Positions 38,416-63,278 of a stretch of DNA of 64,000 nt are shown piece by piece. Made by a program: the position numbers and the translations under genes. The stretch is taken from positions 310,001-374,000 of the forward strand of contig NZ_FRCS01000006.1 in assembly GCF_900143005.1 (NCBI RefSeq). Reading direction: 5' to 3'. Origin of the DNA: Cryptosporangium aurantiacum. GTDB lineage: Bacteria > Actinomycetota > Actinomycetes > Mycobacteriales > Cryptosporangiaceae. Below the pieces are notes generated by a model, which made no database searches, was not told the origin of the DNA, and worked only from the letters and a program-made list of their open reading frames with translations. Positions within the stretch are counted from its first letter, which is position 1. Each line of letters begins with the position of its first letter.

Positions 38416-39796
38416 CACGATGACCCGCCCGGGTGACACGCGACTGCCGTGGCGCACTGGTGGGGCTCTGGTCTCGGGCAGCGTCCTGCAACCCTTGAAC
38501 TCGTCGATGATCGCGCTGGCGATCGTGAGCCTGACGGCCGACTTCGGGGCGTCGGACCTCATGCCGTGGGTCATCGCGGCGATGTACATCGCGACCGCGG
38601 TCGCCGCCCCCGTCTCCGGGCGGTTGGGAGCGCTGCTCGGGCCGCGGCGCGTCTACCTGGCTGGGCTCGGCCTGATCCTGGCCGGATCGGCACTCGGCCT
38701 GCTCGCACCGAGCCTGGCTTGGGTGGTCGTCTCCCGGGTGATCGTCGGGCTGGGCACGGCCACGCAGTACCCCAACGCCGTCGCACTGGTGCGCCGCTAC
38801 GCCCGCAGGCGCCACGTCCGGACCGGCGGGATTCTGGGCCTGCTCGCCATCGGCGCGCAGGTGACCGTGGCCTTCGGTCCGACGCTGGGTGGCCTGCTGG
38901 TCGGCCTGCTCGGCTGGCAAGCGGTGATGTGGATCAACGTTCCCGTCGTAGTCGCCAGCGCGCTGCTCGTCGGAGTGTTCGTGGACCGGGACGACCCCGT
39001 CACCGTCACCCGTCGCGAGCTGCCTCCCGCCTTCGATCTGCCCGGCATCGGGCTGTTCCTCGGGTGGGTCGTCTCGTTGATGATGTTCCTGCTGTCCGCG
39101 GTGGACGAACCGCAGTGGTGGCTGCTCGGCGTCTTCGTCGTCTGTGCCGTCCTGTTCGTCCAGCGGGAGCGGCACACCGCCAGCCCGTTCCTCGACGTAT
39201 CCGCGCTGGTCCGCAACCGGGCGCTCTTCGCAACGCTGATCCGCACTCTGCTCACGTACGTAGCGTTCTACGCCGTCTACTTCGGCTTCCCGCAGTGGAT
39301 GCAGGCCGCGCGCGGTCTCAGTCCGGCGCAGGCCGGGCTGATGATGTTCCCGCTCGCCGCCATCGGTGTGGTCTGCAGCCTGGTCGCCACCCGGACCTGC
39401 CGGATCGCGGGCCCACGCCGGGTACTGGTCGGCGGCACGGCGGCGATGATCGCCGGAGGTGTCATCATCGCCTTCGCCGCCGGCTCGCGCGTTCCCGCGC
39501 TGCTCGTGCTCGTGGCCGTCGTGGCGGGCATTCCGAGCGGCTTCAACAACATCGGCAACCAGACCGTCGTCGACCGGGCGACCCCCGACGGCGACGTCGG
39601 AACCGCGATGGGGCTGTATCGCACGACGCAATTCATCGGGGCCAACTTCGCCGCTGTCGCCCTCGACGTTCTCGTCGGCCCCGATGCCACCGACGCGGGC
39701 TTCGAACGGCTCGGTTGGTTCACCGCGGCCCTCGGCGTCCTGCTGCTCGCGGTGACGGTCGCGGCACGCAGCCTTCGTCCCGAACATCCCATATAA
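38408..39796 (+). CDS. DHA2-type MFS exporter
   Basis: 462 aa from the GTG at 38408, with GGAGG 8 bases upstream (an ATG 12 bases later is possible). Twelve to fourteen hydrophobic segments are visible. The LNSSMIALAIVSLTADFGAS segment at TM1 resembles the EmrB/QacA motif D1, though the usual LD is replaced by LN. The ISSSV-type motif A/C are present in outline (VSGRLGALLGPRRVYLAG; GAQVTVAFGPTLGGLLVG, motif C of antiporters). It is a proton-driven exporter of unknown compounds under MarR control. Its stop codon lies inside the AT-rich element at 39792. Confidence 0.87.
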   Translation: MADTMTRPGDTRLPWRTGGALVSGSVLQPLNSSMIALAIVSLTADFGASDLMPWVIAAMYIATAVAAPVSGRLGALLGPRRVYLAGLGLILAGSALGLLAPSLAWVVVSRVIVGLGTATQYPNAVALVRRYARRRHVRTGGILGLLAIGAQVTVAFGPTLGGLLVGLLGWQAVMWINVPVVVASALLVGVFVDRDDPVTVTRRELPPAFDLPGIGLFLGWVVSLMMFLLSAVDEPQWWLLGVFVVCAVLFVQRERHTASPFLDVSALVRNRALFATLIRTLLTYVAFYAVYFGFPQWMQAARGLSPAQAGLMMFPLAAIGVVCSLVATRTCRIAGPRRVLVGGTAAMIAGGVIIAFAAGSRVPALLVLVAVVAGIPSGFNNIGNQTVVDRATPDGDVGTAMGLYRTTQFIGANFAAVALDVLVGPDATDAGFERLGWFTAALGVLLLAVTVAARSLRPEHPI

Positions 39797-39805
39797 TATT
39801 TTGGT
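39792..39805. promoter_or_regulatory. AT-rich palindrome site A (regulon motif, weakest member)
   Basis: TATAATATTTTGGT matches CATAATATATTATG at 8 of 14 positions, with the left half (ATAATAT) intact. It overlaps the stop of the MFS gene and lies 23 bases before the GntR start. It could equally be a plain -10 region, but the left half is the same as in sites B and D. Confidence 0.4.
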
Positions 39806-39827
39806 CGACGGATATTCAGGAGGTCAG

Positions 39828-40523
39828 GTGACGTCAGCCAGCATCGTCGGACGCGCCGGTTCGCGGCGTCAGGGGCTTCCCGACGAGGTAGCGACGTACG
39901 TCCGCGAGCTCATCCTCTCCGGCCAGGTCCGTCCGGGCGAGTTCATCCGGATGGACGGGATCGCCGAGGCCGTCGGCGTGAGCAACACCCCAGTGCGGGA
40001 AGGGCTGCTCAAGCTGTCCAATGAGGGGTGGCTCGTCCTCGAGCCTCGCCGCGGCTTCGTCGTCGCCGAGTTCTCCGCTCAGGACGTCCAAGACCTGTTC
40101 TGGGCCCAAGCCCAGCTCGCGGGAGAGCTGGCCGCGCGCACCGCGAAGGCGATCACACCGGATCGGCTCGAGCGCCTGAGCGAGCTGATCGAGCGACACG
40201 AGCAGGCCGTCACGTCTAACCAGGGCCCGGAAACGATCGACGCCCTGAATCACGCGTTCCACCGCGAGGTGAACCTGGGCGCGAACTCGCCCTACCTAGC
40301 ACGGCTGCTGTCCTCGGTCGCTCAGAACTTCCCCAATCGCTTCTACTCCGAGATCGAGGGCCAGGTCCAGGCGTGCCGGGTCGAGCACCCGCTGATTCTG
40401 GACGCCTTGCGCCGGCGGAAGGCGCGAACGGCCCGCCAGATCATGCAGCAGCACATTCTGTCGCGTGGCACCTCGCTCGTCGCGATGCTCGAAGAACGCG
40501 GCATCTTCACCGCCGAACAGTAG
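39828..40523 (+). CDS. GntR-family regulator (FCD type), left end of the CoA island
   Basis: 231 aa from the GTG at 39828, preceded by GGAGG 4 bases away (a TTG at 39801 is the longer option). Winged helix at about 20-75 (LPDEVATYVRELILSGQVRPGE, EAVGVSNTPVREGLLKLSNEGWLVLEPR in part) and an all-helical FCD ligand domain after it. The FCD metal/acid-binding residues lie around HEQAV, HAFHREVN and VEHPLI. It is followed by an SDR gene 7 bases on. It probably senses an acidic or CoA-linked intermediate of the island and may bind the AT-rich palindromes. Confidence 0.87.
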   Translation: MTSASIVGRAGSRRQGLPDEVATYVRELILSGQVRPGEFIRMDGIAEAVGVSNTPVREGLLKLSNEGWLVLEPRRGFVVAEFSAQDVQDLFWAQAQLAGELAARTAKAITPDRLERLSELIERHEQAVTSNQGPETIDALNHAFHREVNLGANSPYLARLLSSVAQNFPNRFYSEIEGQVQACRVEHPLILDALRRRKARTARQIMQQHILSRGTSLVAMLEERGIFTAEQ

Positions 40524-40530
40524 GGCCGAC

Positions 40531-41274
40531 GTGGATCTCGGTATCTCCGGCAAACGTGCGGTGGTCATCGGCGGCAGCGCCGGACTCGGTCTGAGCTGCG
40601 CCCGAGCGTTGGCTGCCGAGGGCGTCGGCCTGGTGCTGTTCGCCCGGAGCCGCGAACGCCTCGAACAGGTGCGCGCGGAACTCGGCGCGGCGGATGTCGT
40701 CGCCGGTGACCTGACCGTTCGAGCCGACGTGGCGCGGCTGGGCGACCACCTCCGCGCCACCGGTGGCTTCGACATCCTCGTGCTGAACACGCCGCGGCCA
40801 CCGAGCCCGATGCGCGACTTCCTGGCCGAAGACGACGACAGCCGCTGGGACGAGGCCTATGTAAACCAGTTACAGGGGGCGCTCAACGTCTTGCGCGCGC
40901 TGGCTCCGCTGCTGGTCGGTCGCGGCTGGGGTCGGATCGTCGCCATCACGTCGGCGAGCGTCAAGCAACCGATGCCACGGCACGCGCTGTCCTCGATCTT
41001 CCGTGCCGGTGTGCAGGCGGCGCTCAAGCATCTCGTCGACGAGCTCGGCGCCCACGGCGTCACCGTGAACTCGGTGGCGCCGGCCACGGTCGTCACGCCG
41101 ACGTTCGCCTCGTTCCACAACCTGGACGAGCGCATCCGCCAAACGCCGATGCAGCGCTCCGGCCGCCCGGAGGAGGTCGCGGCCACGGTGGCGTTCCTTG
41201 CCTCGGAGCCGGCCGGCTTCATCACCGGCCAGGTCGTGGCCGTGGACGGCGGAATCACCCGCTCACTGGTATGA
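40531..41274 (+). CDS. SDR-family protein lacking the YxxxK motif
   Basis: 247 aa from the GTG at 40531. The cofactor loop GGSAGLGLSCARAL (TGxxxGxG type with GGSAGLG) and the VVAGDLT segment are intact. At the catalytic place the sequence reads ITSASVKQPMPRHALSSIF followed by RAG: the Ser is kept, but Tyr and Lys of YxxxK are replaced by a SSxxR-like arrangement. A subgroup of FabG-like SDRs has just this change, so it is likely a family feature and not decay. It may act by another mechanism or as a binding protein. It forms a unit with the GntR gene and converges on the CoA-binding protein gene with a 20-bp overlap. Confidence 0.82.
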   Translation: MDLGISGKRAVVIGGSAGLGLSCARALAAEGVGLVLFARSRERLEQVRAELGAADVVAGDLTVRADVARLGDHLRATGGFDILVLNTPRPPSPMRDFLAEDDDSRWDEAYVNQLQGALNVLRALAPLLVGRGWGRIVAITSASVKQPMPRHALSSIFRAGVQAALKHLVDELGAHGVTVNSVAPATVVTPTFASFHNLDERIRQTPMQRSGRPEEVAATVAFLASEPAGFITGQVVAVDGGITRSLV

Positions 41275-43443: not shown

Positions 43444-43467
43444 AACTGCTCCTTGATCGTTGAGAGG

Positions 43468-44214
43468 TCAGAGCGTCGTCGCGTGGCCGCCGTCGACCGG
43501 CAGGACCGCCCCGGTGACGAACGCCCCGGCGCGCGAAGCCAGGTAGAGCGCGGCGCCGGCCATGTCCGCGCCCTCGGCGAAGCGCTGGAGCGGGATGGGT
43601 TCCAGCAGCGATTCGGCGCCCTCGGCGTCGATCGTGTTCTGCAGCATCCGACTCGGAAACCGCCCGGGCGCGAGCACGTTCACCGTGATCGAGTCCGCGG
43701 CGAGCGTCGCGGCGAGGTGGCGACTGAGCTGATGGACGGCCGCCTTGGAGGCGGAGTACGCGTAGGTCTCGTGGTCGGGGACGTGGAAGGCATCGATCGA
43801 GCCGACGTTGATGACCCGGGCCGGGTCCTCCCGGGTGGCCGCCGTGCGAAGCAGCGGCAGCAGGGCTTGGGTCAGGAAGAACACGCCCTTGACGTTGAGG
43901 TCGAAAACCTTGTCCCAACCGCTCTCCGGGTAGCTGTCGAGCTTCTCCGCCCAGAGCGCTCCGGCGTTGTTGATCAGCACGTCGACCCGGGTCTCCCGCG
44001 CGCCCAACTCGTCCGCGAGCAACCGGCAGCCCTCGACGGTGCCGAGGTCGGCCGCGATGGCCGTGCAGCCCTCCGGCGTCGCGGCGAGCCGCCGGGAACT
44101 GATGTAGACGCGCGCCCCGGCCGCGACGAAGCTCTCGGCGATCGCATAGCCGATACCCCGGCTTCCGCCGGTCACGACGACGACCTTCCCCGCGACGTCG
44201 AACAGGTCGGTCAT
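43468..44214 (-). CDS. SDR-family oxidoreductase
   Basis: 248 aa, ATG at 44214 overlapping the thiolase stop. Classical SDR: TGGSRGIGYAIAE cofactor loop, NNAG, catalytic Ser in INVGSID and YAYSASK with Tyr and Lys. The SSRRL after the second strand suggests NADP. It probably oxidises or reduces a hydroxy/oxoacyl-CoA between the hydratase and thiolase steps, a 3-hydroxyacyl-CoA dehydrogenase role inferred from its neighbours. Confidence 0.88.
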   Translation of the reverse strand: MTDLFDVAGKVVVVTGGSRGIGYAIAESFVAAGARVYISSRRLAATPEGCTAIAADLGTVEGCRLLADELGARETRVDVLINNAGALWAEKLDSYPESGWDKVFDLNVKGVFFLTQALLPLLRTAATREDPARVINVGSIDAFHVPDHETYAYSASKAAVHQLSRHLAATLAADSITVNVLAPGRFPSRMLQNTIDAEGAESLLEPIPLQRFAEGADMAGAALYLASRAGAFVTGAVLPVDGGHATTL

Positions 44215-45425
44215 GACGCCACCCGCTCGAACACGGCCGTGAGCCCCTGGCCACCGCCGATGCACATGGTCTCCAGGGCGTACCGGCCGTCGCGCCGCTC
44301 CAGCTCGCGGAGCATCGTGGTCAGGATGCGCACGCCGGTGGCGCCGACCGGATGGCCGAGCGAGATCCCCGAGCCGTTGACGTTGAACCGGTCGAAGTCG
44401 CCCCCGCCGAACTGCCACTCGCGGGTGACGGCCAGGGCCTGCGCCGCGAACGCCTCGTTCAGCTCGATGAGGTCCATGTCGGCCAGCGTCAGCTTGGCCC
44501 GTTGCAGCGCGCGCTGGGTGGAGGGCACCGGTCCGATCCCCATCCGGTGTGGCTCGACCCCGGCCACACCCCAGGCGACCAGCCGGCCCAGCGGACGGAG
44601 GCCGAGTTCCTCGGCCTTCTCCCTGGTGGTGACGACGCACGCCGCGGCGCCGTCGTTCTGCCCGCTCGCGTTGCCTGCGGTGACCGTGGCCTCCGGATCC
44701 TTGCCCGAGCGCACCGGACGCAACCCCGCGAGGGCCTCGAGCGAGACGTCGGTCCGGGGATGTTCGTCGGTCTCGACGATCGTCTCGCCGCGCCGGGATC
44801 GCACCACGACCGGGACGATCTCGTCGGTGAAGCGGCCCTCGCGTTGCGCGGCGACCGCACGTTCGTGCGAGCGCAGAGCGAACTGGTCCTGCACCTCCCG
44901 CGGGATCGCGTACTCGCGGCGCAGGTTCTCGGCGGTCTCGATCATGCCGCCCTCGACCGGGTAGTTCTTGCCGCCCGACGTGATGCGTCCGCGAGCGATC
45001 CGGTCCCAGAGCTGGACGGAATCCCCGCGGAAGCCGAACCGTCCTCCGAGGGCGTAGTGCTCGGCCTGGCTCATACTCTCCGCGCCCCCGGCGATGAGCA
45101 GGTCGGCGACGCCGGTCTGCACCCGCATCGCCGCGTCGAGTACGGCCTGCAGGCCCGAGCCGCACCGGCGGTCGAGCTGCTGGCCGGGCACGGTGACGGG
45201 GAAGCCGGCGTCGAGCGCGGCGACCCGGCCGATGGCCGGCGCCTCACCGTTCGGGTAGCACTGGCCGAAGATCACGTCGTCCACGGCCGCGGGGTCGATG
45301 CCGGTCCGCTGGACGAGCGCGGTGAGCACCGTGGCCGCCAACTCTGCCGCCGGCACATCTTTGAAAGCTCCTCCGTACCGGCCGACCGGGGTGCGCACTG
45401 GTTCGCAGATGACCGCGTCCGGCAT
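44211..45425 (-). CDS. acetyl-CoA acyltransferase (thiolase)
   Basis: 404 aa, ATG at 45425 overlapping the acyl-CoA dehydrogenase stop. Degradative thiolase with acyl-accepting Cys88 (RRCGSGLQA), His358 (SLGHPVGATG) and second Cys388 (CIGGGQG), all intact. It cleaves a 3-oxoacyl-CoA with CoA, releasing acetyl-CoA or propionyl-CoA. It is placed between the dehydrogenase and SDR genes in an operon that holds every step of a beta-oxidation round. Confidence 0.93.
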   Translation of the reverse strand: MPDAVICEPVRTPVGRYGGAFKDVPAAELAATVLTALVQRTGIDPAAVDDVIFGQCYPNGEAPAIGRVAALDAGFPVTVPGQQLDRRCGSGLQAVLDAAMRVQTGVADLLIAGGAESMSQAEHYALGGRFGFRGDSVQLWDRIARGRITSGGKNYPVEGGMIETAENLRREYAIPREVQDQFALRSHERAVAAQREGRFTDEIVPVVVRSRRGETIVETDEHPRTDVSLEALAGLRPVRSGKDPEATVTAGNASGQNDGAAACVVTTREKAEELGLRPLGRLVAWGVAGVEPHRMGIGPVPSTQRALQRAKLTLADMDLIELNEAFAAQALAVTREWQFGGGDFDRFNVNGSGISLGHPVGATGVRILTTMLRELERRDGRYALETMCIGGGQGLTAVFERVAS

Positions 45426-46588
45426 CAGTACGACCTCGGCAGGCCGAGAACCTTGGTGGAGATGAAGTTGAGCACCATCTCCTGGGAGACCGGTGCCACC
45501 TTCAGCAGCCGTGACTCCCGCCAGAACCGCTCCACGTGGTACTCCTTCGCGTACGAGTAGCCCCCGAGCGTCTGCATGGCCCGGTCACACGCCTGGAAGC
45601 CGGCCTCGCTGCCCAGGAACTTGGCCGCGTTCGCCTCCGGGCCGCACGGCAAGTGGCGGTCGTAGAGGTCGGCCGCGTGCATGGCGACGTGCTCCGCGGC
45701 GGTCAGCCGGATCCAGGAGTCGGCCAGCGGGTGCGCGACGGCCTGGTTCTTGCCGATCGGCCGGTCGAAGACGACGCGATCCTTGGCATACTGCGTCGCG
45801 ATCTCCAGCGCCGCCCGCCCCAGCCCGACCTGGGCGGTCGCGACGACGATGCGCTCCGGATTCAGCCCGTCGAGCAGATACGAGAAACCCTTGCCGACCT
45901 CGCCCACGACGTCTTCATCGGGGACTTCGAGGTTGTCGATGAACAGCTCGTTCGAGTCGATGGCCGCACGGCCCAGCTTCTCGATCTCGCGCACCGCGAT
46001 CCGGTCCCGGTTCAGATCGGTGAAGAACAGCGTCATGCCATCGAACGGCCGCTCCTCCGTCCGGGGTGACGTGCGGGCGAGCAGCAGGATCCGCTGGGCG
46101 TTCTGGGCGTTGGTGATCCACACCTTCTGCCCGTTGACCAGCCACCCGCCGCTCGTCCTCTCCGCGCGGGTCGTGATCCGCGAGGTGTCGACGCCGGCCG
46201 TCGGCTCGGTGACGCCGAACGCCATCAGCAGGTCACCGCTGGCGACCAGGGGCAGGTACTTGCGCTTCATCTCCTCCGAGCCGTGCCGGATGATCGGCCC
46301 CGGCGGAAAGATGTAGAAGTGGACCGCGGACGCGCCGCTGGTACCGGCACCCGAGGCGGCGATCTCGTGCAGCATCACCGCCGACTCGGACAGACCCAGC
46401 CCGAGCCCGCCGTACTCCTCCGGGATCATCGCGCCCAGCCAGCCACCCGCAGCGAACGCCTTCACGAACTCCCACGGGTACTCGGCCTTCTTGTCCTTCT
46501 CCCGCCAGTACTCGAGACCGAACTTGCGGGCCAGTTCGCCGGTGGCCGTCCGGATGAGATCGAGATCCCGTTCATCGTCGCTACTCAT
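45425..46588 (-). CDS. acyl-CoA dehydrogenase
   Basis: 387 aa from the ATG at 46588, overlapping the ligase stop by 8 bases. FAD-binding motifs MAFGVTEPTAGVDTS and VWITNAQNA are clear. The C-terminal AMQTLGGYSYAKEYHVERFW and the VAPVSQEM stretch place a Glu where the catalytic base of short-chain acyl-CoA dehydrogenases stands (usually GTSEI). It forms the 2,3-double bond of the acyl-CoA made by the adjacent ligase. Electron transfer flavoprotein genes are not in the window. Confidence 0.92.
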   Translation of the reverse strand: MSSDDERDLDLIRTATGELARKFGLEYWREKDKKAEYPWEFVKAFAAGGWLGAMIPEEYGGLGLGLSESAVMLHEIAASGAGTSGASAVHFYIFPPGPIIRHGSEEMKRKYLPLVASGDLLMAFGVTEPTAGVDTSRITTRAERTSGGWLVNGQKVWITNAQNAQRILLLARTSPRTEERPFDGMTLFFTDLNRDRIAVREIEKLGRAAIDSNELFIDNLEVPDEDVVGEVGKGFSYLLDGLNPERIVVATAQVGLGRAALEIATQYAKDRVVFDRPIGKNQAVAHPLADSWIRLTAAEHVAMHAADLYDRHLPCGPEANAAKFLGSEAGFQACDRAMQTLGGYSYAKEYHVERFWRESRLLKVAPVSQEMVLNFISTKVLGLPRSY

Positions 46589-48512
46589 GCACCTGCTCCA
46601 GCTCCGTGGGGATGTCTTCGAGGGGCGTGGCGGGATCCAGCGAAGAGAGATCTCCCGGCGGCAGACCGAGATAGCGAGCGCGGATCGCGCGGCGCAGGAT
46701 CTTGCCGTTCTTCGTCTTCGGGATGGCGCCGACCACGACGAGCGCCGGTGCGAACGACTTGCCGGTGTTGCGAATCGCGGCGTCGCGCACGTCGTCGTCA
46801 GGGTGGCCGCACAGCACGACGAAGGCCACGACGCGCTGTCCGCGGGCCGGGTCCGGCACGCCCACCACCGCCGCCTCGGCGATGCGCGGATCACGCAGTA
46901 GCGCGGTCTCGATCTCGGCCGGTCCGACGCGTCGGCCGGAGATCTTGATCGTGTCGTCGGAGCGGCCGTGCAGCCGCCACTCCCCCTCGTCGCTCACCGA
47001 AGCCAGGTCTCCGTGCACCCAGACGTCATCGAAGCGCGACCAGTACGTCTCCAGATAGCGCGGCTCGTCGCGCCAGAACGCGTGGGTCATGCCGGGCCAC
47101 GTGTTGCGGACCGCGAGCTCCCCCACCTCGCCGACGACCGGCGCGCCGCTCTGGTCCAGCACGGTCACGTCCATGCCGGGCAACGGTCCGTTGAACGCCG
47201 TCGGCCGGATCGGGAGGAACGGGTAGGCGATCAGAATGCCGCCGCCGGTCTCGGTGCCGCCGCTGTAGTTGACGATCGGGCGCGTCCAGCCTCCGACGGT
47301 GGAGAACATCCAGTGCCAGCTCGGCTCGTCCCAGGACTCGCCGGTCGAGGCGAAGGAACGCACGGTGGGCAGCGTGCTGTCCGGTTCGCCGCCGGCCATC
47401 ATGATCGCGCGCGCCGCGGTCGGCGCGATGCCCAGCAGCGTGACGGCATTGCGGTCGGCGACCTCCCAGAGTCGCCGCGGATGGGGATGGACCGGGACGC
47501 CCTCGACGAGCACGAGCGTGGCGCCGAGTTGCAGGCCACCCAGGATCAGCAACGGGCCGAGCATCCAGCCCATGTCCGCGATCCAGCCGATGACGTCGTC
47601 GTCGTGGACGTCGAAGCCGTAAGCGAAGTCGACCGCGGCTTTCACGCTGAAGCCGGCGTGCGAATGCACGATGCCCTTCGGACGCCCGGTCGTGCCCGAG
47701 GTGTAGATGATCGTCAGCGGGTCGTTGGACTCGGTCGAGGCGGTCTCCACCGGCGGCGCCTCGGGCAGCTCGTCCCAGTAGACGTCCCGTCCGGACTGCA
47801 TCGGCACGTTGTGCCCGAGGTGACGCACGACCACCACGCGCACGCCGACCGGCACGGCTTCGTCGCAGGTGGTCTTCAGCTCGACCCGACGGCTCCGGCG
47901 CGTCGTGCCGTCCGCGGTGACGACGACCTTCGCCCCTGAGTCGGCGATCCTGGTCGCCAGCGCGTCCGTCCCGAAACCGCTGAACGCCGGCACCGACACC
48001 GCGCCGAGCATCGCGCAGGCAAGGAACGCGACGACAGCCTCCGGCACCACCGGCAGGAACAACACGACCCGGTCTGCGGGGCCGACCCCCATAGCGGCCA
48101 GCTGCGCGGCGAAGCGCCGGACCTGCTCGTCCAGCTGTCCGTAGGTCAGCGTGCGACGCTGACCCAAGTCGCCCTCGTAGACGACGGCGAGCTTGTCGCG
48201 GAGGGCCGAGACCGCGTGCCGGTGCGCGCACAGGTGGGCGGCGTTGATCCTGCCCCCGACGAACCAGCTCGGCAACGCATGCCCGCGACTGTCGTCGCGC
48301 ACGGCAAAGAACGGTGTGGAGAACTCGACATCGAGGTCGTCGACCACCGCGCCCCAGAACCATTCCGGATCCTCGATCGCCCCCGCGTGGAACCGCGGGA
48401 GGTCGTCGCCGAATCCCCAGCGCCGCAGCGCGGCCAGCAGCCGGCTCCGTTCCCGGCGCTCGGCGTCCGGCACCCAACCAGCCCCTCCTTTGGTGTCGAA
48501 CAGCGCTGTCAT
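46581..48512 (-). CDS. AMP-forming acyl-CoA synthetase
   Basis: 643 aa, of the acetyl-CoA synthetase size class with its N-terminal cap (about 35-95). P-loop IIYTSGTTGRPKG, the adenine-binding FASTGESWD and YSGGTETGG, the hinge WVHGDLASVSDEGEWRLHGR and the regulatory/catalytic Lys in KTKNGKILRR are all present. It activates a free carboxylic acid with ATP and CoA. The acid is likely the growth substrate or an intermediate of the island. ATG at 48512 overlaps the MaoC gene stop. Confidence 0.92.
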   Translation of the reverse strand: MTALFDTKGGAGWVPDAERRERSRLLAALRRWGFGDDLPRFHAGAIEDPEWFWGAVVDDLDVEFSTPFFAVRDDSRGHALPSWFVGGRINAAHLCAHRHAVSALRDKLAVVYEGDLGQRRTLTYGQLDEQVRRFAAQLAAMGVGPADRVVLFLPVVPEAVVAFLACAMLGAVSVPAFSGFGTDALATRIADSGAKVVVTADGTTRRSRRVELKTTCDEAVPVGVRVVVVRHLGHNVPMQSGRDVYWDELPEAPPVETASTESNDPLTIIYTSGTTGRPKGIVHSHAGFSVKAAVDFAYGFDVHDDDVIGWIADMGWMLGPLLILGGLQLGATLVLVEGVPVHPHPRRLWEVADRNAVTLLGIAPTAARAIMMAGGEPDSTLPTVRSFASTGESWDEPSWHWMFSTVGGWTRPIVNYSGGTETGGGILIAYPFLPIRPTAFNGPLPGMDVTVLDQSGAPVVGEVGELAVRNTWPGMTHAFWRDEPRYLETYWSRFDDVWVHGDLASVSDEGEWRLHGRSDDTIKISGRRVGPAEIETALLRDPRIAEAAVVGVPDPARGQRVVAFVVLCGHPDDDVRDAAIRNTGKSFAPALVVVGAIPKTKNGKILRRAIRARYLGLPPGDLSSLDPATPLEDIPTELEQVHE

Positions 48513-48979
48513 GGTGTGGCCGCCGCAGCGGCCGGGCGCTTGAGCATCAGCCCGGCGCGTTTGCAGTCGCAGACGAGCTCGTCGCGCTGGTTGAGGCCGT
48601 AGTGGCGGAAGAACACGATGCCCGAGTCGCTGCGGCTGCGGGATTCTCGCCGGTCCACGATCTCGGTGCGGACGTGGATCGTGTCGCCGTGGAACACCGG
48701 CTTGGGGAACTTCACGTCCTCGAAGCCCAGGTTCCCCAGCGTGGTGCCCTGCGTGGTGTCGGGCACGGTGATGCCGGTGATCAGCCCCAGGATGAAGAGG
48801 CTGTTGACCAGGCGCTGACCGTAGATGCTCTGCTTGGCGTACTCCTCGTCCAGGTGCAGCGGCGCGAGGTTGAGCGTCAGCGAGCAGAACAGCACGTTGT
48901 CGGTCTCGGTGACCGTGCGCCGAGTCGCGTGCTCGATGACCGTGCCGATCTCGAGCTCCTCGAAGTACAGGCCGGGCAT
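48509..48979 (-). CDS. MaoC-type (hotdog) hydratase
   Basis: 156 aa, ATG at 48979. Hotdog fold with the hydratase motif region DNVLFCSLTLNLAPLHLDEEYA, where Asn and His correspond to the Asp/His of R-specific hydratases. VRTEIVDRRESRSRSDSGIV closes the sheet. It is closest in look to mesaconyl-CoA or itaconyl-CoA hydratases. It stands between the CitE-like lyase (11 bp) and the ligase (ATGA overlap). Its inferred job is to add water to a branched unsaturated dicarboxyl-CoA to give the lyase substrate. Confidence 0.87.
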   Translation of the reverse strand: MPGLYFEELEIGTVIEHATRRTVTETDNVLFCSLTLNLAPLHLDEEYAKQSIYGQRLVNSLFILGLITGITVPDTTQGTTLGNLGFEDVKFPKPVFHGDTIHVRTEIVDRRESRSRSDSGIVFFRHYGLNQRDELVCDCKRAGLMLKRPAAAAATP

Positions 48980-48990
48980 GGTTTCCCCCG

Positions 48991-49875
48991 TCAGTCGCGG
49001 GTGTGCATAGAGGCGAGGACTTCGCGGGCCGTCTTCACGTGGGCGTAGTCGATGTGCATGTCCTCGTAACGGACAGCGGCCGCGCCGGACGCCTCGGCCT
49101 TCTCGAAGGCCTCGACCATGCCCCGGTAGAACGCGATCTCGGCGGCGGAGGGCTGGAACACCTCGTTGGCCATCGCGACGTGCGAGGGATGGATGAGCAC
49201 CTGGCCGCGGAACCCGAGCTCGCGGTTCTGCTCCGCGAAGCGGCGCGCGCCGTCGGGGTCCCCGAGGTCCTGCCAGATACCGCTGAGCGGGAAGTCCAGC
49301 CCGTTCGCGCGGCAGGCGAGAACCGCGCGGCTCCGGAGGTAGAGAGTCTCCAGGCCGCCGGGGGTGAACGTGAAGCCGATGGACCGGGACACGTCGGCGT
49401 CCCGGGCGGTGCCGGCGAACAGCGTCGCCACCCGGGGTGACGCCGTGACAAGCTGCTCGCAGGTGGCGTAGGCCTGCGCGGTTTCGAGGTTGAGGATGAA
49501 CTCGATCGTTCCGGCCGGTACGCCGTTACGGGCCTCGTAGTGCGTCACCAGCGCGTCGTACCGGATGACGTCGCCGGGACCCAACAACTTGGGCAGCGCG
49601 AAGCCGTCCAGGCCGGGGACGGCGACCGCTTCGATGTCGTCACCCGATAATCCGGTGTCCAGCGGATTCAGGCGGACGTAGACGCCGATCCCGGCGTCGG
49701 TCTCGCGAAGCCGGGTGATCGACCGGGCCACCTCTTGCCGGGCCTGGTCCTTGAGGTGAGCGGGGACCGCGTCCTCCAGGTCGAGGATGATCCCGTCGAC
49801 GCCGGACCGGACGGCCTTGTCGACCCAGTCGGCCCGGTGACCGGGAACGAACAGCAGCGAGCGCATCGGCCACAT
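48991..49875 (-). CDS. HpcH/HpaI-type CoA-ester lyase (CitE-like)
   Basis: 294 aa from the ATG at 49875, with AAGGAGG 6 bases upstream. TIM-barrel aldolase: SLLFVPGHRADWVDKA, the acidic GIILDLEDAVP, YVRLNPL with the CoA-contacting Arg, and LNLETAQAY with the metal-binding Glu. Family members are malyl-CoA, citramalyl-CoA and beta-methylmalyl-CoA lyases. First gene of the long minus-strand operon, its ATG lies 22 bases from palindrome site B. The neighbours (CaiB, MaoC, MmgE) favour citramalyl-CoA cleavage to pyruvate and acetyl-CoA. Confidence 0.88.
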   Translation of the reverse strand: MWPMRSLLFVPGHRADWVDKAVRSGVDGIILDLEDAVPAHLKDQARQEVARSITRLRETDAGIGVYVRLNPLDTGLSGDDIEAVAVPGLDGFALPKLLGPGDVIRYDALVTHYEARNGVPAGTIEFILNLETAQAYATCEQLVTASPRVATLFAGTARDADVSRSIGFTFTPGGLETLYLRSRAVLACRANGLDFPLSGIWQDLGDPDGARRFAEQNRELGFRGQVLIHPSHVAMANEVFQPSAAEIAFYRGMVEAFEKAEASGAAAVRYEDMHIDYAHVKTAREVLASMHTRD

Positions 49876-49896: not shown

Positions 49897-49910
49897 CATA
49901 ATATATTATG
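49897..49910. promoter_or_regulatory. AT-rich palindrome site B (perfect)
   Basis: CATAATATATTATG is a perfect 14-bp palindrome in the 111-bp divergent region between the CitE-like and CaiB/BaiF genes. -10-like hexamers (TATTAT, TAATAT) lie inside it on both strands. A bound regulator would control both transcripts. Confidence 0.75.
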
Positions 49911-52572: not shown

Positions 52573-52586
52573 CTTAATATATTATG
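52573..52586. promoter_or_regulatory. AT-rich palindrome site C
   Basis: CTTAATATATTATG differs from the perfect site B at one base. It lies in the 53-bp divergent region between the MmgE/PrpD start (23 bases away) and the aldehyde dehydrogenase start (16 bases), so it must overlap both core promoters. Confidence 0.7.
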
Positions 52587-52602: not shown

Positions 52603-54090
52603 GTGGCCGAGGTGCTCATGGTCTGGACTGGTCAATTCGACAAGCTCTTCCTCGGGGGCGAGTGGGTCGCCCCGAACGGCGACGACCGAATCGACGTGCG
52701 GTTCCCGGGCACCGAAGAGGTATTCGCCACCGTCCCGTCGGCGACACGCGGCGACGTCGACCGCGCGGTCGCCGCCGCCCGCGCGGCGTTCGACACCGGC
52801 CCGTGGCCCAAGCTATCGGTGGGTGAGCGGCTCGGCGTCCTCCACAGGTTCCGCGAGCTCTACACCGCGCATCTCGACACGATGGCGGAGCTCATCACCG
52901 AGGAGATGGGCTGTCCGAGCCGGACCGCTCGTGCCGTTCAGGCGCAGGCTCCACAGCTTCTTCTCGAGGGCTACCTCGAGGTGGCCGAGAGCTACCCGTT
53001 CCGTGACCTGCGCGTGGCGAGCACCGGCACCGCGCTGGTCACCCGCGAACCGGTCGGCGTCGTCGCCGCGATCGTGCCGTGGAACGTGCCGCAGAGCGTC
53101 ATCATGCAGAAGCTCGCGCCGTCCTTGATCACCGGCTGCACGGTCGTTCTCAAGCCCGCACCCGAGACTCCCCTGGACTCCTATTTGCTGGCGGAGCTGC
53201 TCCAGCAGGCCGGCGTCCCGGACGGTGTGGTCAACGTCGTCCCCGCCGACCGGGAGGTCAGCGAGTATCTCGTCGCGCACCGCGGCGTCGACAAAGTGTC
53301 GTTCACCGGTTCCACCGCGGCCGGCCGGCGCATCGCCGCCGTCTGCGGCGGCGACCTCCGCCGGGTGACGCTCGAGCTCGGAGGGAAGTCCGCCGCGGTG
53401 TTCCTCGACGACGCCGACCTCGACACCGCAGTCGAATCGCTGCGGCTGCTCTCGTTCCGCAACAGCGGCCAGGTCTGCAGCCTCAAGACGCGGCTCGTCG
53501 TCTCCCGCCGCCGCGAACCGGAGCTCCTCGAACGGCTGGCCGCCCTGGTCGAGTCGATGCCGGTCGGCGACCCGCACGACCCCGAGACCCAGATCGGGCC
53601 GATGGTCAACGCCCGTCAGCGCGACATCGTCAACAACTACATCGCGGTCGGTCAGCAGCAGGGCGCCCGGGCCGTCGTCGGCGGGGGCACCGCGGACTTC
53701 GACCGGGGCTACTTCGTCCAGCCGACGGTCTTCACCGACGTCCGTCCCGAACACCGCATCGCCCAAGAGGAGATCTTCGGCCCGGTGCTGGCGGTCCTCC
53801 GCTACGACACCGAAGACGAGGCGATCGCGATCGCGAACGACTCGCCGTACGGGCTCAGCGGTGCGGTGTTCACCACCGATCTCGAGCACGGCCTGGCTGT
53901 CGCCGGCCGGATCCGCACCGGCACGGTCGAACTGAACGGCAGCCCGATCGGCACCCATGCGCCGGTCGGCGGCTTCAAGAGCAGCGGCATCGGACGCGAA
54001 CAGGGCTACGAAGGGTTCGACTCCTACACCGAGACCCGCTCGATCGGGCTGCCGCCCACCTTCGCCGACACCACTCTGGAGACTCGATGA
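52603..54090 (+). CDS. aldehyde dehydrogenase
   Basis: 495 aa from the GTG at 52603, with GGAAAGAG at 52589-52596 as ribosome site. NAD-dependent superfamily: PWNVPQSVIMQKLAPSL, FTGSTAAGR, general base Glu258 (LELGGKSA) and nucleophile Cys292 (SGQVCSLKT), all intact. It oxidises an aldehyde to an acid, which could then enter through the CoA ligase or transferase. Its stop overlaps the next start (ATGA). Substrate unknown. Confidence 0.92.
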   Translation: MAEVLMVWTGQFDKLFLGGEWVAPNGDDRIDVRFPGTEEVFATVPSATRGDVDRAVAAARAAFDTGPWPKLSVGERLGVLHRFRELYTAHLDTMAELITEEMGCPSRTARAVQAQAPQLLLEGYLEVAESYPFRDLRVASTGTALVTREPVGVVAAIVPWNVPQSVIMQKLAPSLITGCTVVLKPAPETPLDSYLLAELLQQAGVPDGVVNVVPADREVSEYLVAHRGVDKVSFTGSTAAGRRIAAVCGGDLRRVTLELGGKSAAVFLDDADLDTAVESLRLLSFRNSGQVCSLKTRLVVSRRREPELLERLAALVESMPVGDPHDPETQIGPMVNARQRDIVNNYIAVGQQQGARAVVGGGTADFDRGYFVQPTVFTDVRPEHRIAQEEIFGPVLAVLRYDTEDEAIAIANDSPYGLSGAVFTTDLEHGLAVAGRIRTGTVELNGSPIGTHAPVGGFKSSGIGREQGYEGFDSYTETRSIGLPPTFADTTLETR

Positions 54091-55215: not shown

Positions 55216-55218
55216 GGG

Positions 55219-56723: not shown

Positions 56724-56724
56724 G

Positions 56725-57291: not shown

Positions 57292-57312
57292 GGCGGCCTT
57301 TCGAAAAGGAAC

Positions 57313-58359
57313 TCAGGCGTTACGGAGGCTTTCTAGCTGGATGGCGCGGGCTTTTCGCTCCCGCGCGCGGGTGCTGAACGTCGCGATCGCGACGCTGATG
57401 ATCAGGGCCGCGCCGTTGAACATCTGGGTGACGCTGGCGGCGGCGCCCAGGAGCGTGAAGCCGTTGACGGCCACCGCGACGAGGAACAGGCCGAACATGG
57501 TTCCCCACACGTTGTAGTGCCCGGGGTTGATCGCGGTGCTTCCGAGGAACACCGCGGCGAGCGCCGGGAACAGGTACGAGATGGCGCTGGTGGAGTCGCC
57601 GCCGCCGTTGGACGACGTGAGCAACGCGCCGGCTATGCCCGCTAGCAGGCCCGAGAGCAAATAGGTGATCCCCACCGCACGCCGGGTACGGATGCCCGCC
57701 AGCTTCGCCGCGTTCTCGTTACTGCCGATGGCGGCCAGTTTGCGCCCGAACGGCGTCTGCGTGATGAAGTACCAGACGACCAGTGCCACGGCGAGCAGCA
57801 GCCAGAACGGCGCGGGGATACCGATGAACTTGTTGGTGATCCAGAGTGAGAAGTCCAGCGGAATGCCGTTGGCGATGGTCTCCCCCTCGGTATACAGGGC
57901 GAGCGCACCGGACCAGAAGATGTAGGTGCCCAGCGTCGCGATGAACGCGTCGAGGTTCAGCACCGCGATGAGGAAGGTGTTGACCGCGCCGGCGAGCACG
58001 CCCACGACCACCCCGATCACGAGGCTGAGCGCCACCGATTGGCCGTGCTCGGAGATCAGGCTGGCCACGGTCACGTTCGACACCCCGGCGATCGCCGCGA
58101 CCGACAGGTCGAAGTATCCGGCGATCAGCGGGATCACCATCGCCAGCGCGATCAGTCCGGTGACCGACTGGTTGGCCAGCACGTTCTGCAGGTTGACGAG
58201 CGTCCGGAAGTGCTCGCCGATGCCGGGCGTCACGAGGAACACGGCGATGAGCAGCACCAGGAAGATCGGTAGACCCGCGCGCTCGAGGTATCCCAACCGG
58301 GACTTGTGCGCGACCGCGGGGGGAGGTTGCTGTTCGGTCTGGACGACGGTGTCGGTCAT
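57313..58359 (-). CDS. ABC permease, RbsC-like
   Basis: 348 aa, ATG at 58359 overlapping the ATPase stop (ATGA). About ten hydrophobic segments, with the RbsC-type stretch GLIALAMVIPLIAGYFDLSVAAIAG (the G-x-DLS motif) and the C-terminal FNGAALIISVAIATF. It forms the homodimeric channel of a ribose/autoinducer-type importer with the next two genes. The pathway suggests the ligand need not be a sugar. Confidence 0.9.
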   Translation of the reverse strand: MTDTVVQTEQQPPPAVAHKSRLGYLERAGLPIFLVLLIAVFLVTPGIGEHFRTLVNLQNVLANQSVTGLIALAMVIPLIAGYFDLSVAAIAGVSNVTVASLISEHGQSVALSLVIGVVVGVLAGAVNTFLIAVLNLDAFIATLGTYIFWSGALALYTEGETIANGIPLDFSLWITNKFIGIPAPFWLLLAVALVVWYFITQTPFGRKLAAIGSNENAAKLAGIRTRRAVGITYLLSGLLAGIAGALLTSSNGGGDSTSAISYLFPALAAVFLGSTAINPGHYNVWGTMFGLFLVAVAVNGFTLLGAAASVTQMFNGAALIISVAIATFSTRARERKARAIQLESLRNA

Positions 58360-59897
58360 GATGGCTTCCCGCTCTGCGTGTGGACCAGTTCGTTGAGGCG
58401 GTGGGCGGTGAGCTCCTCGCCGGATACCTGGGCGATCAATCGCCCGTTGCGCAGCACGATCGCGCGGTCGACGAACTGCGCGAGCTCCTCTAGGTCGGAG
58501 GTGACCACCACGGCGGCGCCTCCGGCGACGGTCATGGTGCGGATGGCGCCGTAGATATCGGCTCTGGCGCCGACGTCCACACCTTGGCTGGGCTCGTCCA
58601 GCAGCAGCACCGACGCGTCCCGGCGCAGCCAGCGCGCGAGGATCGTCTTCTGCTGGTTCCCGCCGGAGAGCGTGCGCATCTCGACCGAACCCGACGGCGC
58701 CTTGATCCCGAAGCGGGCCCGGAGCGCGTCGCCGTCCTGGCGCATCTGCGCCCGGCGGAACCGCAGTCCGCGCCAGTACCGGTTGAGCACGCCGATATCC
58801 ATGTTGTCGTCCACGGTCATGTCCAGGAACGCGGCACCGCGGGCGCGGTCCTCAGGGATCATGACCACCCCGGCCTCGATCGTCGGGCCCATACCGCCGC
58901 GGAGTGGCCGGCCCGCGAGCGTCACCTCACCGGCGCTTCGCTCGAGGCCGCCGTAGATCGCGGTCAGCAGCTCGGTCCGTCCGGACCCGAGTAGCCCGGC
59001 CACTCCGAGGATCTCGCCGGCGCGAACCTCGAAACTCACGTCGATGACCGGGCCGGCGCTCAGCCCGGACACGGCCAGGATCGGTTCCCCGGCCGTGACC
59101 GTGGCTCGCTGTCCCCGGATCTCGTCCGCACGTCGGCCCAGGATCGACTCGATAAGCACCGCTTCGGTCAGCTCCGAGGTGCGGTGCTCGGCAAACACTT
59201 GCCCATCGCGCATCACGGTGACCCGGTCGGCCGCCGCCATGACCTCGTCCAGGCGGTGGCTGATGAAGACGATCGCGTGTCCCATCTCCGCGAGCCGGCG
59301 AGCAGTGGAGAGCAACAACCCCACTTCCGCCGCCGGAAGCGCGGCGGTCGGCTCGTCCAGCGCGACGATGCATCGATCGTCCTTGACGTCCTGCAACGCG
59401 GTCGCGATCGCAACCTGCGTCCGGACCGAGACCGGCAGATCACGCACCAGCGTGCCCGGGTCGACGTCGATCCGGAACCGCTCGATCAACTCTGACGCTC
59501 GGCGGCGGACCTCTCCCCACGCGATCCGCGTCGACTTGGCGGTGGGGTAGTGGCCGCCCAGAGCGATGTTCTCCGCGACGCTCAGATCCGGGTACAGCGG
59601 CGGATCCTGATGCACGACCCGGAAACCCAGCTCGTACGCGGCCCTCGCCGTCAACTCGGCGGCCGGGAGCTGACGCCCGTTGAACGTCAGCTCCCCCGCG
59701 TCCGCGGGCACGACCCCTGAGAGGATCTTGATCAGCGTCGACTTGCCGCACCCGTTCCCGCCGACCAGCGCGTGCACTTCCCCGAACCGGACCGTCAGGT
59801 CCACGTCCTTGAGCGCCTGCGTTCCGGGGAACACCTTCCGCAATGCCTGCACGGACAAGGCGGTAGCGGACTCGGTCTCGGTTCGGACAGCGCTCAT
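58356..59897 (-). CDS. ABC importer ATPase, RbsA-like (two nucleotide-binding domains)
   Basis: 513 aa. First domain: Walker A VGGNGCGKSTLIK, a signature region of variant sequence (VRDLPVSVRTQVAIA instead of LSGGQ, as usual for this class) and Walker B CIVALDEPTAALP. Second domain: degenerate Walker A VAGLLGSGRTEL, signature LSGGNQQKTILARWL and Walker B VLLLDEPSQGVD. The asymmetry is typical of RbsA/MglA proteins. It powers uptake through the RbsC-like permease. It ends overlapping the permease start, and is separated by 2 bases from the binding-protein gene. Confidence 0.93.
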   Translation of the reverse strand: MSAVRTETESATALSVQALRKVFPGTQALKDVDLTVRFGEVHALVGGNGCGKSTLIKILSGVVPADAGELTFNGRQLPAAELTARAAYELGFRVVHQDPPLYPDLSVAENIALGGHYPTAKSTRIAWGEVRRRASELIERFRIDVDPGTLVRDLPVSVRTQVAIATALQDVKDDRCIVALDEPTAALPAAEVGLLLSTARRLAEMGHAIVFISHRLDEVMAAADRVTVMRDGQVFAEHRTSELTEAVLIESILGRRADEIRGQRATVTAGEPILAVSGLSAGPVIDVSFEVRAGEILGVAGLLGSGRTELLTAIYGGLERSAGEVTLAGRPLRGGMGPTIEAGVVMIPEDRARGAAFLDMTVDDNMDIGVLNRYWRGLRFRRAQMRQDGDALRARFGIKAPSGSVEMRTLSGGNQQKTILARWLRRDASVLLLDEPSQGVDVGARADIYGAIRTMTVAGGAAVVVTSDLEELAQFVDRAIVLRNGRLIAQVSGEELTAHRLNELVHTQSGKPS

Positions 59898-59899
59898 CG

Positions 59900-61054
59900 T
59901 CAGCCCACTCCCCAGGCCTTCTTGTACAGGCTCCGGAAGTCCACCTTGCTGGTGAACGGCTTGCCCGGCTCACTCGGCAGGTTGTGGTCCTTGTCGATCG
60001 ATACATAGCCGATGCCCTGCGGAACCGACGGCTGCTTGTTGAAGTGCCGGTTGAGCTGATCGATCGCCGCCCACGAGAACCACGCGGAGTCGGAGGCGAC
60101 GCCCTCGGCGTAGATCTGTCCGGCACGGACCAGGTCCAGCCCCGGCGCGGTACCGATCCCGGAAATCACCTTCGCATCGCTCCCGGACTGCAGCACGGCC
60201 TTCGCGCCACCGGCGTCGACGGCGTTGGTATCGAACGGCCAGGCCACGTAGTCCGCGTCCGGATGCTTCGTCAACGCGTTACGCAGCGCGTTGACCCACG
60301 GCCCGTTCGGCGCCAGGTCTGTGGTCGTCCACGGCACCTCGGCGACGACCTCACAGTCGGCGCACTCACCGATCGCCTTATCGAAGCCGTCTTTCAGGAA
60401 CTTGAACTGGGGATCTCCCTGGCCGAACGCCGTGATGATCTTGGCCTTGCCGCCCGAGTCAGCCGTGATGAACTCACCGAGATGCGCACCCCAGCCGGTC
60501 CAGAACGCCTTGTTGTCCGGAATTTCCTCGCTGTAGATCATCGGCACCGTGAACAACGACGGGCCGACGCCCGCGTCGTTGCAGTCCACCGTCCGGACCC
60601 CGATCACCGGGATGCCCAGCTGCTTGGCCTGTTGCAGCTCCGGCTGGACGGTCGAGCAGGAGAACGAACTCTCGACGATGGCGTCCGGACGCGCGGCCAG
60701 CGCGGTTCGCATCGCGGTGGCGTAGCCGTTCGCCTCGTTCAAGTTGCCGTCGATGACGTGCAGGTTCCAGCCCATCGCCTTGGCGGCTTCCTGGCCGGCG
60801 GCCGCATACCCCTTGCACGCTTGCGTTCGCTGCCCGCAGGAGATCCACCAGACCTCCTTGCCCTTCGCCGGCGGCGGAGACGTCGCCGGCGGAACGCCCT
60901 CGGTTCCCTTGAAGAGCTCGTTCACCGCCTCGGTGTCCGCGCTCGAGCTGGTACTCGCCGAGTCGCTCGCGCCACCGCTACAGGCGCTGAGCAGAAGTGC
61001 TGCCAGCACTAAGCCGAGTGCCACCGCGCCCGTCCATGGCCGTCTGAAACGCAT
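59900..61054 (-). CDS. substrate-binding lipoprotein of the RbsABC-type importer
   Basis: 384 aa from the ATG at 61054, with GGAGGG upstream. Lipoprotein signal with Cys25 (LLSAC). The mature part is a family-4 periplasmic-binding fold (EVWWISCGQRTQACKGYAAA, IPVIGVRTVDCND). Unusually, it has at least six further cysteines (in WISCGQRTQAC, SFSCSTV, TVDCND and GECADCE), which may form disulfides. It binds the substrate outside the cell. First gene of the minus-strand operon, with palindrome site D 33 bases upstream. The ligand is unknown. Confidence 0.9.
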   Translation of the reverse strand: MRFRRPWTGAVALGLVLAALLLSACSGGASDSASTSSSADTEAVNELFKGTEGVPPATSPPPAKGKEVWWISCGQRTQACKGYAAAGQEAAKAMGWNLHVIDGNLNEANGYATAMRTALAARPDAIVESSFSCSTVQPELQQAKQLGIPVIGVRTVDCNDAGVGPSLFTVPMIYSEEIPDNKAFWTGWGAHLGEFITADSGGKAKIITAFGQGDPQFKFLKDGFDKAIGECADCEVVAEVPWTTTDLAPNGPWVNALRNALTKHPDADYVAWPFDTNAVDAGGAKAVLQSGSDAKVISGIGTAPGLDLVRAGQIYAEGVASDSAWFSWAAIDQLNRHFNKQPSVPQGIGYVSIDKDHNLPSEPGKPFTSKVDFRSLYKKAWGVG

Positions 61055-61087
61055 CGAAACCCTCCGTTGGGTGAGGCGGATCGCAAA

Positions 61088-61101
61088 CATAATATATGAT
61101 G
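61088..61101. promoter_or_regulatory. AT-rich palindrome site D
   Basis: CATAATATATGATG differs from site B at one base. It lies 33 bases upstream of the binding-protein start, where the -10 region of the importer operon should be, and 48 bases downstream of the end of the second CoA-transferase gene. Confidence 0.7.
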
Positions 61102-61149
61102 CATGAGGTTGAAACGGATCAGCGAGTTCGAAAAGCCCTGCTGAGCGCG

Positions 61150-62319: not shown

Positions 62320-63155
62320 CAGGACCGCCACTGCGGTGCGTCACCGGTCGGCCAGTGTGCGCTCAAGCCGAGCGCCTCCGGGCCGCCCTCGTTGCGTCCG
62401 AACACCGCCGGACGCTTCTCGGCGAAGGCCGAGAAGCCCTCCAGGGCATCCGGGGTTCGGTAGCCCTCCTCGGTGATCCGCTCTTCCCACTCGAGCGCTT
62501 CGTCCCAAGTCAGGTCGATGCTGTCGTACGCGATCCGCTTGGTCGCCGCGACCCCCTCGGGGCTGAACTGAGCGATCACCGCTGCGAGTTCCAACGCTGC
62601 GGCGACGGCCTGTCCGGCCGGCACGACCCGCTGCACGAGTCCGATGCGGTAGGCCTTGTCCGCATGCATGTACTCGGAGGTCAACAAACTCTCCAACGCG
62701 TTGCCGAGGCCGACGATCCGCACTAACCGGGTGGTGCACCCGGCTCCGTTGACCAGTCCGCGCTTCAGGCCCGAGGCACCGATCCGAACGGTGTCCGATG
62801 CCACCCGCAGGTCGCACGCGACGGCCAGCGCGAAGCCGCCGCCGACGCAGTAGCCCTCGATCGCGGCGATGAACGGGGTGGAGATCCGCCACGGCTTGGG
62901 CAGCACCGTTCTGCGGCCGGTGCCTTCGGCGCCGACCACGGTCTCCACGTAGTCCGGGACGTAACCGCCGGCGCTGAACGACTCCCCTCCTGCGCCGCTG
63001 ATGACCGCCGCCCGGATGTGCCGGTTGACGTCGATCTCGTCGTAGATCGCCTCGAGCTGCTTCGCCATGGTCGAGGTGACCGCGTTCCGCTTCTCGGGGT
63101 TGTTGATGATGATGTGCCCGACGTGGTCGGCCACCTGGAAGTCGACGCTCGCCAT
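62319..63155 (-). CDS. enoyl-CoA hydratase/isomerase
   Basis: 278 aa from the ATG at 63155, with GGAGGGG upstream. Crotonase fold: NPEKRNAVTSTMAKQL, GESFSAGGYVPDYVE and IEGYCVGGGFALAVACDL. SGLKRGLVNGAGCT replaces the usual hydratase Glu region, so it may be an isomerase, dehalogenase-like or hydrolase member. A second glutamate further on (EEGYRTPDALEGFSAFAEKR) is standard. First gene of the unit under site E, followed by the CoA-transferase. Confidence 0.88.
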   Translation of the reverse strand: MASVDFQVADHVGHIIINNPEKRNAVTSTMAKQLEAIYDEIDVNRHIRAAVISGAGGESFSAGGYVPDYVETVVGAEGTGRRTVLPKPWRISTPFIAAIEGYCVGGGFALAVACDLRVASDTVRIGASGLKRGLVNGAGCTTRLVRIVGLGNALESLLTSEYMHADKAYRIGLVQRVVPAGQAVAAALELAAVIAQFSPEGVAATKRIAYDSIDLTWDEALEWEERITEEGYRTPDALEGFSAFAEKRPAVFGRNEGGPEALGLSAHWPTGDAPQWRS

Positions 63156-63264
63156 CGCCCCTCCGCCTGTGTCGCGGGCGCTCCGCCTCCCCTCGCCGCG
63201 CTGGCTCATCCGATAGCTCGGAGAGCGCGACGGGAAGTCACGGAGTTGAGTGGGTCACACGATC

Positions 63265-63278
63265 TATCATAATGATTA
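63265..63278. promoter_or_regulatory. AT-rich palindrome site E (variant)
   Basis: TATCATAATGATTA contains the perfect palindrome ATCAT-A-ATGAT (63266-63276). It lies 110 bases upstream of the hydratase start, directly after a possible -35 box on the minus strand (TTGACG, 63288-63283). The half-site ATAAT/ATTAT is shared with sites B-D, but spacing differs, so a second regulator may bind here. Confidence 0.5.

Follow-up and report, generated by a model that had tools for sequence, protein, structure and literature searches.

Which protein recognizes the AT-rich palindromes at the promoters of an acyl-CoA catabolic island in the actinobacterium Cryptosporangium aurantiacum? The island lies in a stretch of 64,000 nucleotides (the window; C6:310001-374000, C6 being contig NZ_FRCS01000006.1) and encodes two FCD-type regulators, GntR1 (39828–40523, forward strand) and the GntR-like GntR2 (63330–64000 and on to about 64088 past the window, reverse strand). 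A preliminary description of this DNA proposed one regulon of five related palindromes, with one of the two GntR proteins as the likely binder. Our analysis suggests that the 14-base palindrome CATAATATATTATG is the operator of GntR1 and that GntR1 represses the transcription units of the island, a reading to which we give a probability of about 0.8. Good evidence backs the proposal of one regulon with a GntR binder at three strong sites; the proposal is plausible at a fourth, 39790, and fails at 63265. In the choice between the two GntR proteins, the comparative evidence from homologue loci points to GntR1.

A search of the window finds one perfect copy of the palindrome, O1 (49897–49910, 0 mismatches), between the divergent CitE-like and CaiB1 genes. 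Two copies carry a single mismatch (13/14): O2 (52573–52586, CTTAATATATTATG), between the divergent genes for an MmgE/PrpD family protein and an aldehyde dehydrogenase (ALDH), and O3 (61088–61101, CATAATATATGATG), upstream of the operon for an ATP-binding cassette (ABC) importer. The agreement of three sites at 13 or 14 of 14 positions is therefore as first described. The fourth site, O4, is a weak candidate operator upstream of gntR1, best placed at 39790–39803 rather than at 39792 (CATATAATATTTTG, 11/14, three mismatches); its matrix score is 12.2 versus 31.5–35.3 for the three strong sites. No strand is assigned to any of the four. The supposed fifth relative, at 63265, is rejected: it differs from the palindrome at more than four positions, and the matrix made from the three strong sites scores it at -3.9. 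Ranked by AT content, the top 20 14-mers of the window all fall at O1, O2, O3 or 63265, in agreement with the description of these places as its most AT-rich spots.

The palindrome is rare. With up to three mismatches allowed, the window has 4 matches, whereas its dinucleotide shuffles average 0.04. In the whole genome (9,579,923 bases in 44 contigs), O1, O2 and O3 are the only places within two mismatches of CATAATATATTATG, all of them within 11.2 kb of the 9.58 Mb, and the backward-read control gives 0. When three mismatches are allowed, the count rises to eight places, four of them in the island, versus one in the control. These genome-wide counts rule out a chance origin, which the preliminary description had already considered hard to credit. 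The motif search proposed there thus finds the strong sites confined to the local island (3/3 places at two mismatches or fewer, 4/8 at three) and also conserved in relatives.

With start codons picked by eye from ribosome-binding sites and N-termini, O1 occupies -35 to -22 from the CitE start codon and -90 to -77 from that of the divergent CaiB1, O2 -37 to -24 from MmgE and -30 to -17 from the divergent ALDH, O3 -47 to -34 from the importer substrate-binding protein, and O4 -38 to -25 from GntR1. The likely CitE start is at 49875, so this gene does not begin inside the palindrome. The strong sites therefore stand, as claimed before, at the heads of transcription units: CitE/CaiB1, MmgE/ALDH and the importer.

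Evidence on the identity of the binder comes from the surroundings of GntR1 homologues in other genomes. GTDB contigs were scanned with an alignment of four GntR1 proteins, and the best 80 of 103 relatives gave 76 distinct loci, all chosen via GntR1, with homologues 49–59% identical from Amycolatopsis, Nocardia, Rhodococcus, Gordonia, Streptomyces, Saccharopolyspora, Actinomadura and others. At two mismatches or fewer, the palindrome has 51 matches in 31 of these loci, whereas 104 permuted palindromes of equal composition average 0.8 matches, with a maximum of 15. The matrix of the window's three sites alone, which is the non-circular test, finds 69 sites scoring at least 20 in 38/76 loci (1.47 Mb). 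Reversed, these loci yield 4 sites, each in a different locus, and 29 control loci (256 kb), of which 18 surround substrate-binding-protein genes and 11 surround CitE homologues and lack GntR1, yield 0. At a score of at least 14, there are 212 sites versus 58 reversed, and 2 in the control loci. A fuller matrix, built from sites in the same loci, finds 105 sites scoring at least 20 in 46/76 loci versus 16 in 15 loci reversed. Fifty-five of the 105 fall in the range of -400 to +60 bp relative to the estimated start of an island-gene homologue (12 GntR1, 12 MaoC, 10 ALDH, 9 CaiB1, 4 CitE and 8 others, some of the homologues counted being distant family members), and 50 lie elsewhere. With the same fuller matrix, a site scoring at least 14 is found within about 250 bp upstream of 35/97 GntR1 homologue genes, versus 5 reversed. 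Five loci (L067, L069, L077, L094 and L118) contain three GntR1-like genes each, beside the same type of operator.

Relatives were also found through CitE. CitE homologues (E ≤ 1e-50) are present in 18/394 genomes of the class, including the genome studied here, and the surrounding DNA was compared for 11 of the other 17. In G494 (CitE 76% identical), the O1 position is also occupied, by CAAAATATATTATG between CitE and CaiB1, and a 57% identical GntR1 homologue adjoins CaiB1. In G461, sites with two mismatches each precede CaiB1, CitE and the GntR1 homologue; the last of these scores 25.5, better than the 12.2 of the weak site upstream of gntR1 in the window. A GntR1 homologue is also present in G073, where the palindrome is matched with two and with three mismatches. 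The remaining eight stretches contain no GntR1 match, and in seven of them (CitE 48–55%) there is no palindrome at three mismatches or fewer; GntR2-like genes occur in four of these seven (G499, G554, G470 and G029). The eighth is G689 (CitE 75%): two weak sites between CitE and CaiB1 score 18.7 and 22.2, two matches with three mismatches lie elsewhere in the stretch, and the genome carries its GntR1 homologues on a different contig. Together, the G494, G461, G073 and G689 stretches contain 12 sites scoring at least 20 on the fuller matrix versus 3 reversed.

We also searched 16 whole genomes, 13 reached via GntR1 loci and 3 from the class search, for the operator form CAYAATATATTRTG. At one mismatch or fewer there are 35 sites versus 1 in the control, and three of the 16 genomes have none; most of these genomes were picked for having sites, so that presence is uninformative and clustering alone counts. 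After 19 sites in already compared stretches were set aside, 13 of the other 16 are within 50 kb of a GntR1 homologue, as counted by hand from coordinates with contigs matched by shared site positions. The three distant sites are in G753 (two) and G754 (one). Among 384 genomes of the class, only the genome of the window has more than one such site.

Several observations weigh against GntR1 as the binder of this operator. Thirty of the 76 GntR1 loci have no site scoring at least 20, which implies that specificity drifts or that many homologues act elsewhere, and the 76 loci are all GntR1-centred. The site before gntR1 in the window is itself weak, with its three mismatches, and G689, despite a CitE of 75% identity, has weak sites only and no GntR1 homologue in the 40 kb around CitE. 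In the class, CAYAATATATTRTG at one mismatch or fewer is found in 19/384 genomes and its backward control in 11; a single match is therefore little above background. A GntR1 homologue at E ≤ 1e-48 is present in 13/384 genomes, and only 2 of these 13 also carry a CAYAATATATTRTG site; having a homologue thus need not mean having a near-perfect site. Finally, among 12 loci of class homologues other than GntR1 itself (L192-L203, 1.5-kb flanks), 4 loci have a site scoring at least 20, versus 2 loci reversed.

Three other explanations have to be weighed. GntR2 might bind the palindromes while GntR1 controls something else, since GntR2 adjoins the same island and resembles the FCD-type NanR and LldR, regulators of a kind that can act on several promoters. 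However, the GntR2 homologues in the four CitE stretches named above come without the palindrome, a GntR2 match at E ≤ 1e-45 is found in just 2 other genomes of 394, and the promoter region of GntR2 itself has a different motif, the core of which, CCTAATCATTATSA, has no exact copy outside this region and 63267. Given also that the palindrome recurs around GntR1 homologues, GntR2 is a very unlikely binder. Similarly improbable is a reading without a specific regulator, in which the palindromes serve divergent genes as shared promoter (-10) elements or act as AT-rich melting sites. A promoter element should recur throughout the genome, and no fourth copy exists at two mismatches or fewer; moreover, the symmetric preference extends over at least 14 positions, and the GntR1 loci contain few matches to permuted palindromes of equal composition. 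In favour of a promoter element, two of the strong sites separate divergent gene pairs, and all three have TATA-like hexamers close to start codons, although an operator overlapping a -10 element is compatible with either explanation.

The least probable alternative, in our view, is that the gene for the binder lies outside the island, for example that it is one of the two nearest GntR1 paralogues, C3:40177 (43% identical) or C9:143753 (41%). Both have a recognition helix without the arginine typical of the FadR subfamily, and at least five loci of relatives carry three GntR1-like genes, but good sites are absent from the 1.5 kb or so around either paralogue (best scores 10.7 and 8.1), whereas GntR1 is located in the island together with the sites.

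The GntR1 protein combines an N-terminal winged helix (PF00392, 8.9e-14) with a C-terminal FCD domain (PF07729, 6.6e-17) and is accordingly an FCD-type GntR regulator. Residues E100, H145, N149, H187 and H209, candidate metal ligands by comparison with other FCD proteins, are near-invariant in 92 homologues. Among known structures, GntR1 matches 6z74 (E 5e-11), presumably Atu1419, and the AlkR structure 9ISW (E 7.6e-8). The recognition helix of FadR is Thr44-Arg45-Thr46-Thr47-x-Arg49-Glu50, and its Arg45 makes an Arg–G contact proposed as conserved (PMC4494728). Aligned by hand and gap-free on the shared Arg-Glu, FadR residues 44–50 correspond to Ser52-Asn53-Thr54-Pro55-x-Arg57-Glu58 of GntR1, in which the arginine that reads G in FadR is replaced by Asn53. 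The same position holds Asn in 63 of the 92 homologues, Thr, Ile and Val in 8 each, Ser and Ala in 2 each, Lys in 1 and Arg in 0, and Arg is found in 6/8 other paralogues of this genome (E ≤ 1e-8). A second residue of FadR with a specific contact, Arg35, corresponds to Asp43 in GntR1 and is Asp or Glu in all 92.

On the DNA side, a symmetric matrix of 54 sites has an A or T majority at positions 3–12, with C/G reaching up to 29% at position 3; the outermost pair of the operator is C/G, and the symmetric preference spans at least 14 positions. The TKGT/ACMA boxes (GT-N2/3-AC) of FadR-subfamily operators are not found in this 54-site matrix. Judging from the sequences, Asn53 in place of Arg would be in keeping with the A/T core. 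Rather tentatively, and at somewhat less than even odds, we extend this to the suggestion that GntR1 heads an FCD clade across many actinobacterial genera that would have given up the Arg–G readout of GT/AC boxes for an all-A/T core with an outer C/G pair and would travel, often in multiple copies, with exchangeable acyl-CoA catabolic islands; one operator code would then be common to islands that otherwise differ. Seven Actinomadura homologues (L134, L136-L140 and L142) have Val in the recognition helix and no consensus site; a different AT-rich stretch, of the form TTTYATATATTTGATT, is common to the DNA upstream of their genes, and as close relatives they count as one case.

GntR1 would belong to a familiar class, the local catabolic repressors. 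Its closest known counterparts include AlkR, a GntR/VanR repressor of alkB2 in Pseudomonas aeruginosa that is released by long-chain acyl-CoA (PMC12042122), and Atu1419, a VanR-group FCD repressor of Agrobacterium fabrum (PMC7797058). AlkR is likewise an FCD-type GntR with a palindrome at -27 to -40 from the start codon, over -10 regions, and it acts on several genes of one pathway; in contrast, its 13-bp operator ATTGTCAGACAAT has GT and AC in the arms, and its ligand and targets are different (PMC12042122). Atu1419 binds ATGTATACAT at several places of one hydroxycinnamic-acid catabolic region, some of them over -10 boxes; as in the island described here, the palindromes stand at more than one promoter, and the identical copies used by Atu1419 also serve its own operon. 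Unlike the palindrome assigned to GntR1, ATGTATACAT contains a G that is read by Arg45 of helix 3 (PMC7797058), where GntR1, by our alignment, has Asn and its putative operator a core without G or C. The FadR-subfamily consensus is also an A/T-rich palindrome, and single sites in divergent pairs are thought to serve both operons, but its conserved TKGT/ACMA boxes have no counterpart in CATAATATATTATG (Suvorova et al. 2015, PMC4494728). BioR (TTATMKATAA), with a site of nearly all A/T, is an exception to these boxes (PMC4494728). The proposed operator core of GntR1 is thus unusual. The accessible parts of the reports on HypR (PMC6608401) and on M. smegmatis GntR operators (PMC2018728) contain no such operator, and no description of it, including the forms TAATATATTA and AATATATT together with GntR, was found in the literature searched.

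As for the mode of action, a GntR1 dimer would bind each palindrome, with one half-site per subunit. The sites lie 22–47 bases upstream of the CitE, MmgE and substrate-binding-protein start codons, which should place them over the -10 region or the start of transcription, and GntR1 would there repress the block of CitE, MaoC, AcsA-like ligase, acyl-CoA dehydrogenase and thiolase genes as well as CaiB1, MmgE, ALDH and the ABC importer. Repression is our best guess because the site positions match those of the known FCD repressors AlkR and Atu1419. Position alone is no proof, since the VanR-like Ms0535 activates from a site at -19 to -44 (PMC4609117). GntR1 may also repress its own gene through the weak site at 39790. 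The releasing ligand would be a pathway intermediate, probably a carboxylic acid or the corresponding CoA ester. If so, CAYAATATATTRTG is a predictive operator with a named regulator gene for little-studied catabolic islands of Nocardia, Rhodococcus, Gordonia, Amycolatopsis and others; regulons could thereby be proposed from sequence and the substrate searched for by induction. The pairing of helix residue and operator core also makes a testable case of specificity change among GntR proteins.

The genes of the island run as follows. Downstream of gntR1 on the forward strand is a gene for a short-chain dehydrogenase/reductase (SDR; 40465–41274 as the open reading frame is listed, the true start being probably later). 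The opposite strand also encodes a protein with succinyl-CoA-ligase and CoA-binding domains, followed by a thiolase with homologues in relatives (44211–45425), an acyl-CoA dehydrogenase (45425–46894 as listed, true start probably later; 76–84% identical in G494, G689 and G461), an AMP-forming, AcsA-like acyl-CoA synthetase (46581–48512), a MaoC-type hydratase (48509–48979) and the CitE-like (HpcH/HpaI) C–C lyase (48991–49875). Past CitE come CaiB1, a class III CoA-transferase (49987–51165, forward), MmgE/PrpD (51125–52549, reverse), ALDH (52603–54090, forward), luciferase-like and hydratase genes, the ABC importer with its permease (BPD_transp_2, 57313–58359), ATPase (58356–59897) and substrate-binding protein (59900–61054), all three on the reverse strand, then CaiB2 and a second hydratase; SDR and cupin protein genes are found among those from CaiB1 to the second hydratase. 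CitE, CaiB1 and CaiB2 resemble citrate/citramalyl-, mesaconyl- and succinyl-CoA enzymes at scores far below NCBIfam cut-offs, and the N-terminal part of MaoC passes the Pfam cut-off for mesaconyl-CoA hydratase.

The island may be a recent acquisition, since the motif and the substrate-binding protein were not found in three genomes of the same genus (G001-G003). Neither these three nor one genome of the same family contains the palindrome at one mismatch or fewer or a match to the substrate-binding protein at E ≤ 1e-40, and footprinting in the nearest relatives was therefore uninformative. Relatives of the substrate-binding protein in 18 loci are only 33–44% identical, too distant for promoter comparison, and none of these loci has a site scoring at least 16. 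The plasmid collection gave three records, two of them without annotation.

The stretch at 63265 belongs to another motif, and the island region therefore holds at least two motif classes. This second-class site (63267–63280, reverse strand, CCTAATCATTATGA) is upstream of the hydratase/CaiB2 unit; the reverse strand of the stretch reads CCCTAATCATTATGA, and the region between GntR2 and the divergent gene past the window end, which we take from its sequence to be AtuA-like, reads CCCTAATCATTATCA. Their core CCTAATCATTATSA is exact at just two genomic places, 63267-63280 and C6:374223-374236 (L010:14223-14236) in the GntR2 promoter region. A genome search finds these two exact copies, no place with one mismatch and five with two; the pattern was derived from its own two places, and the informative part is that there is no third copy. 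At three mismatches it is not distinct (37 forward and 42 reverse versus 18 and 23 in the control). As the simplest reading of two copies, CCTAATCATTATSA is probably a separate operator of GntR2, the candidate binder of the second-class sites. Beyond the window, at L011:785-7121, are genes for an acyl-CoA dehydrogenase, an acetyl-CoA hydrolase/transferase, a lipocalin-like protein, a BD-FAE-type esterase and a second AcsA-like ligase, which perhaps form a separate pathway linked to GntR2.

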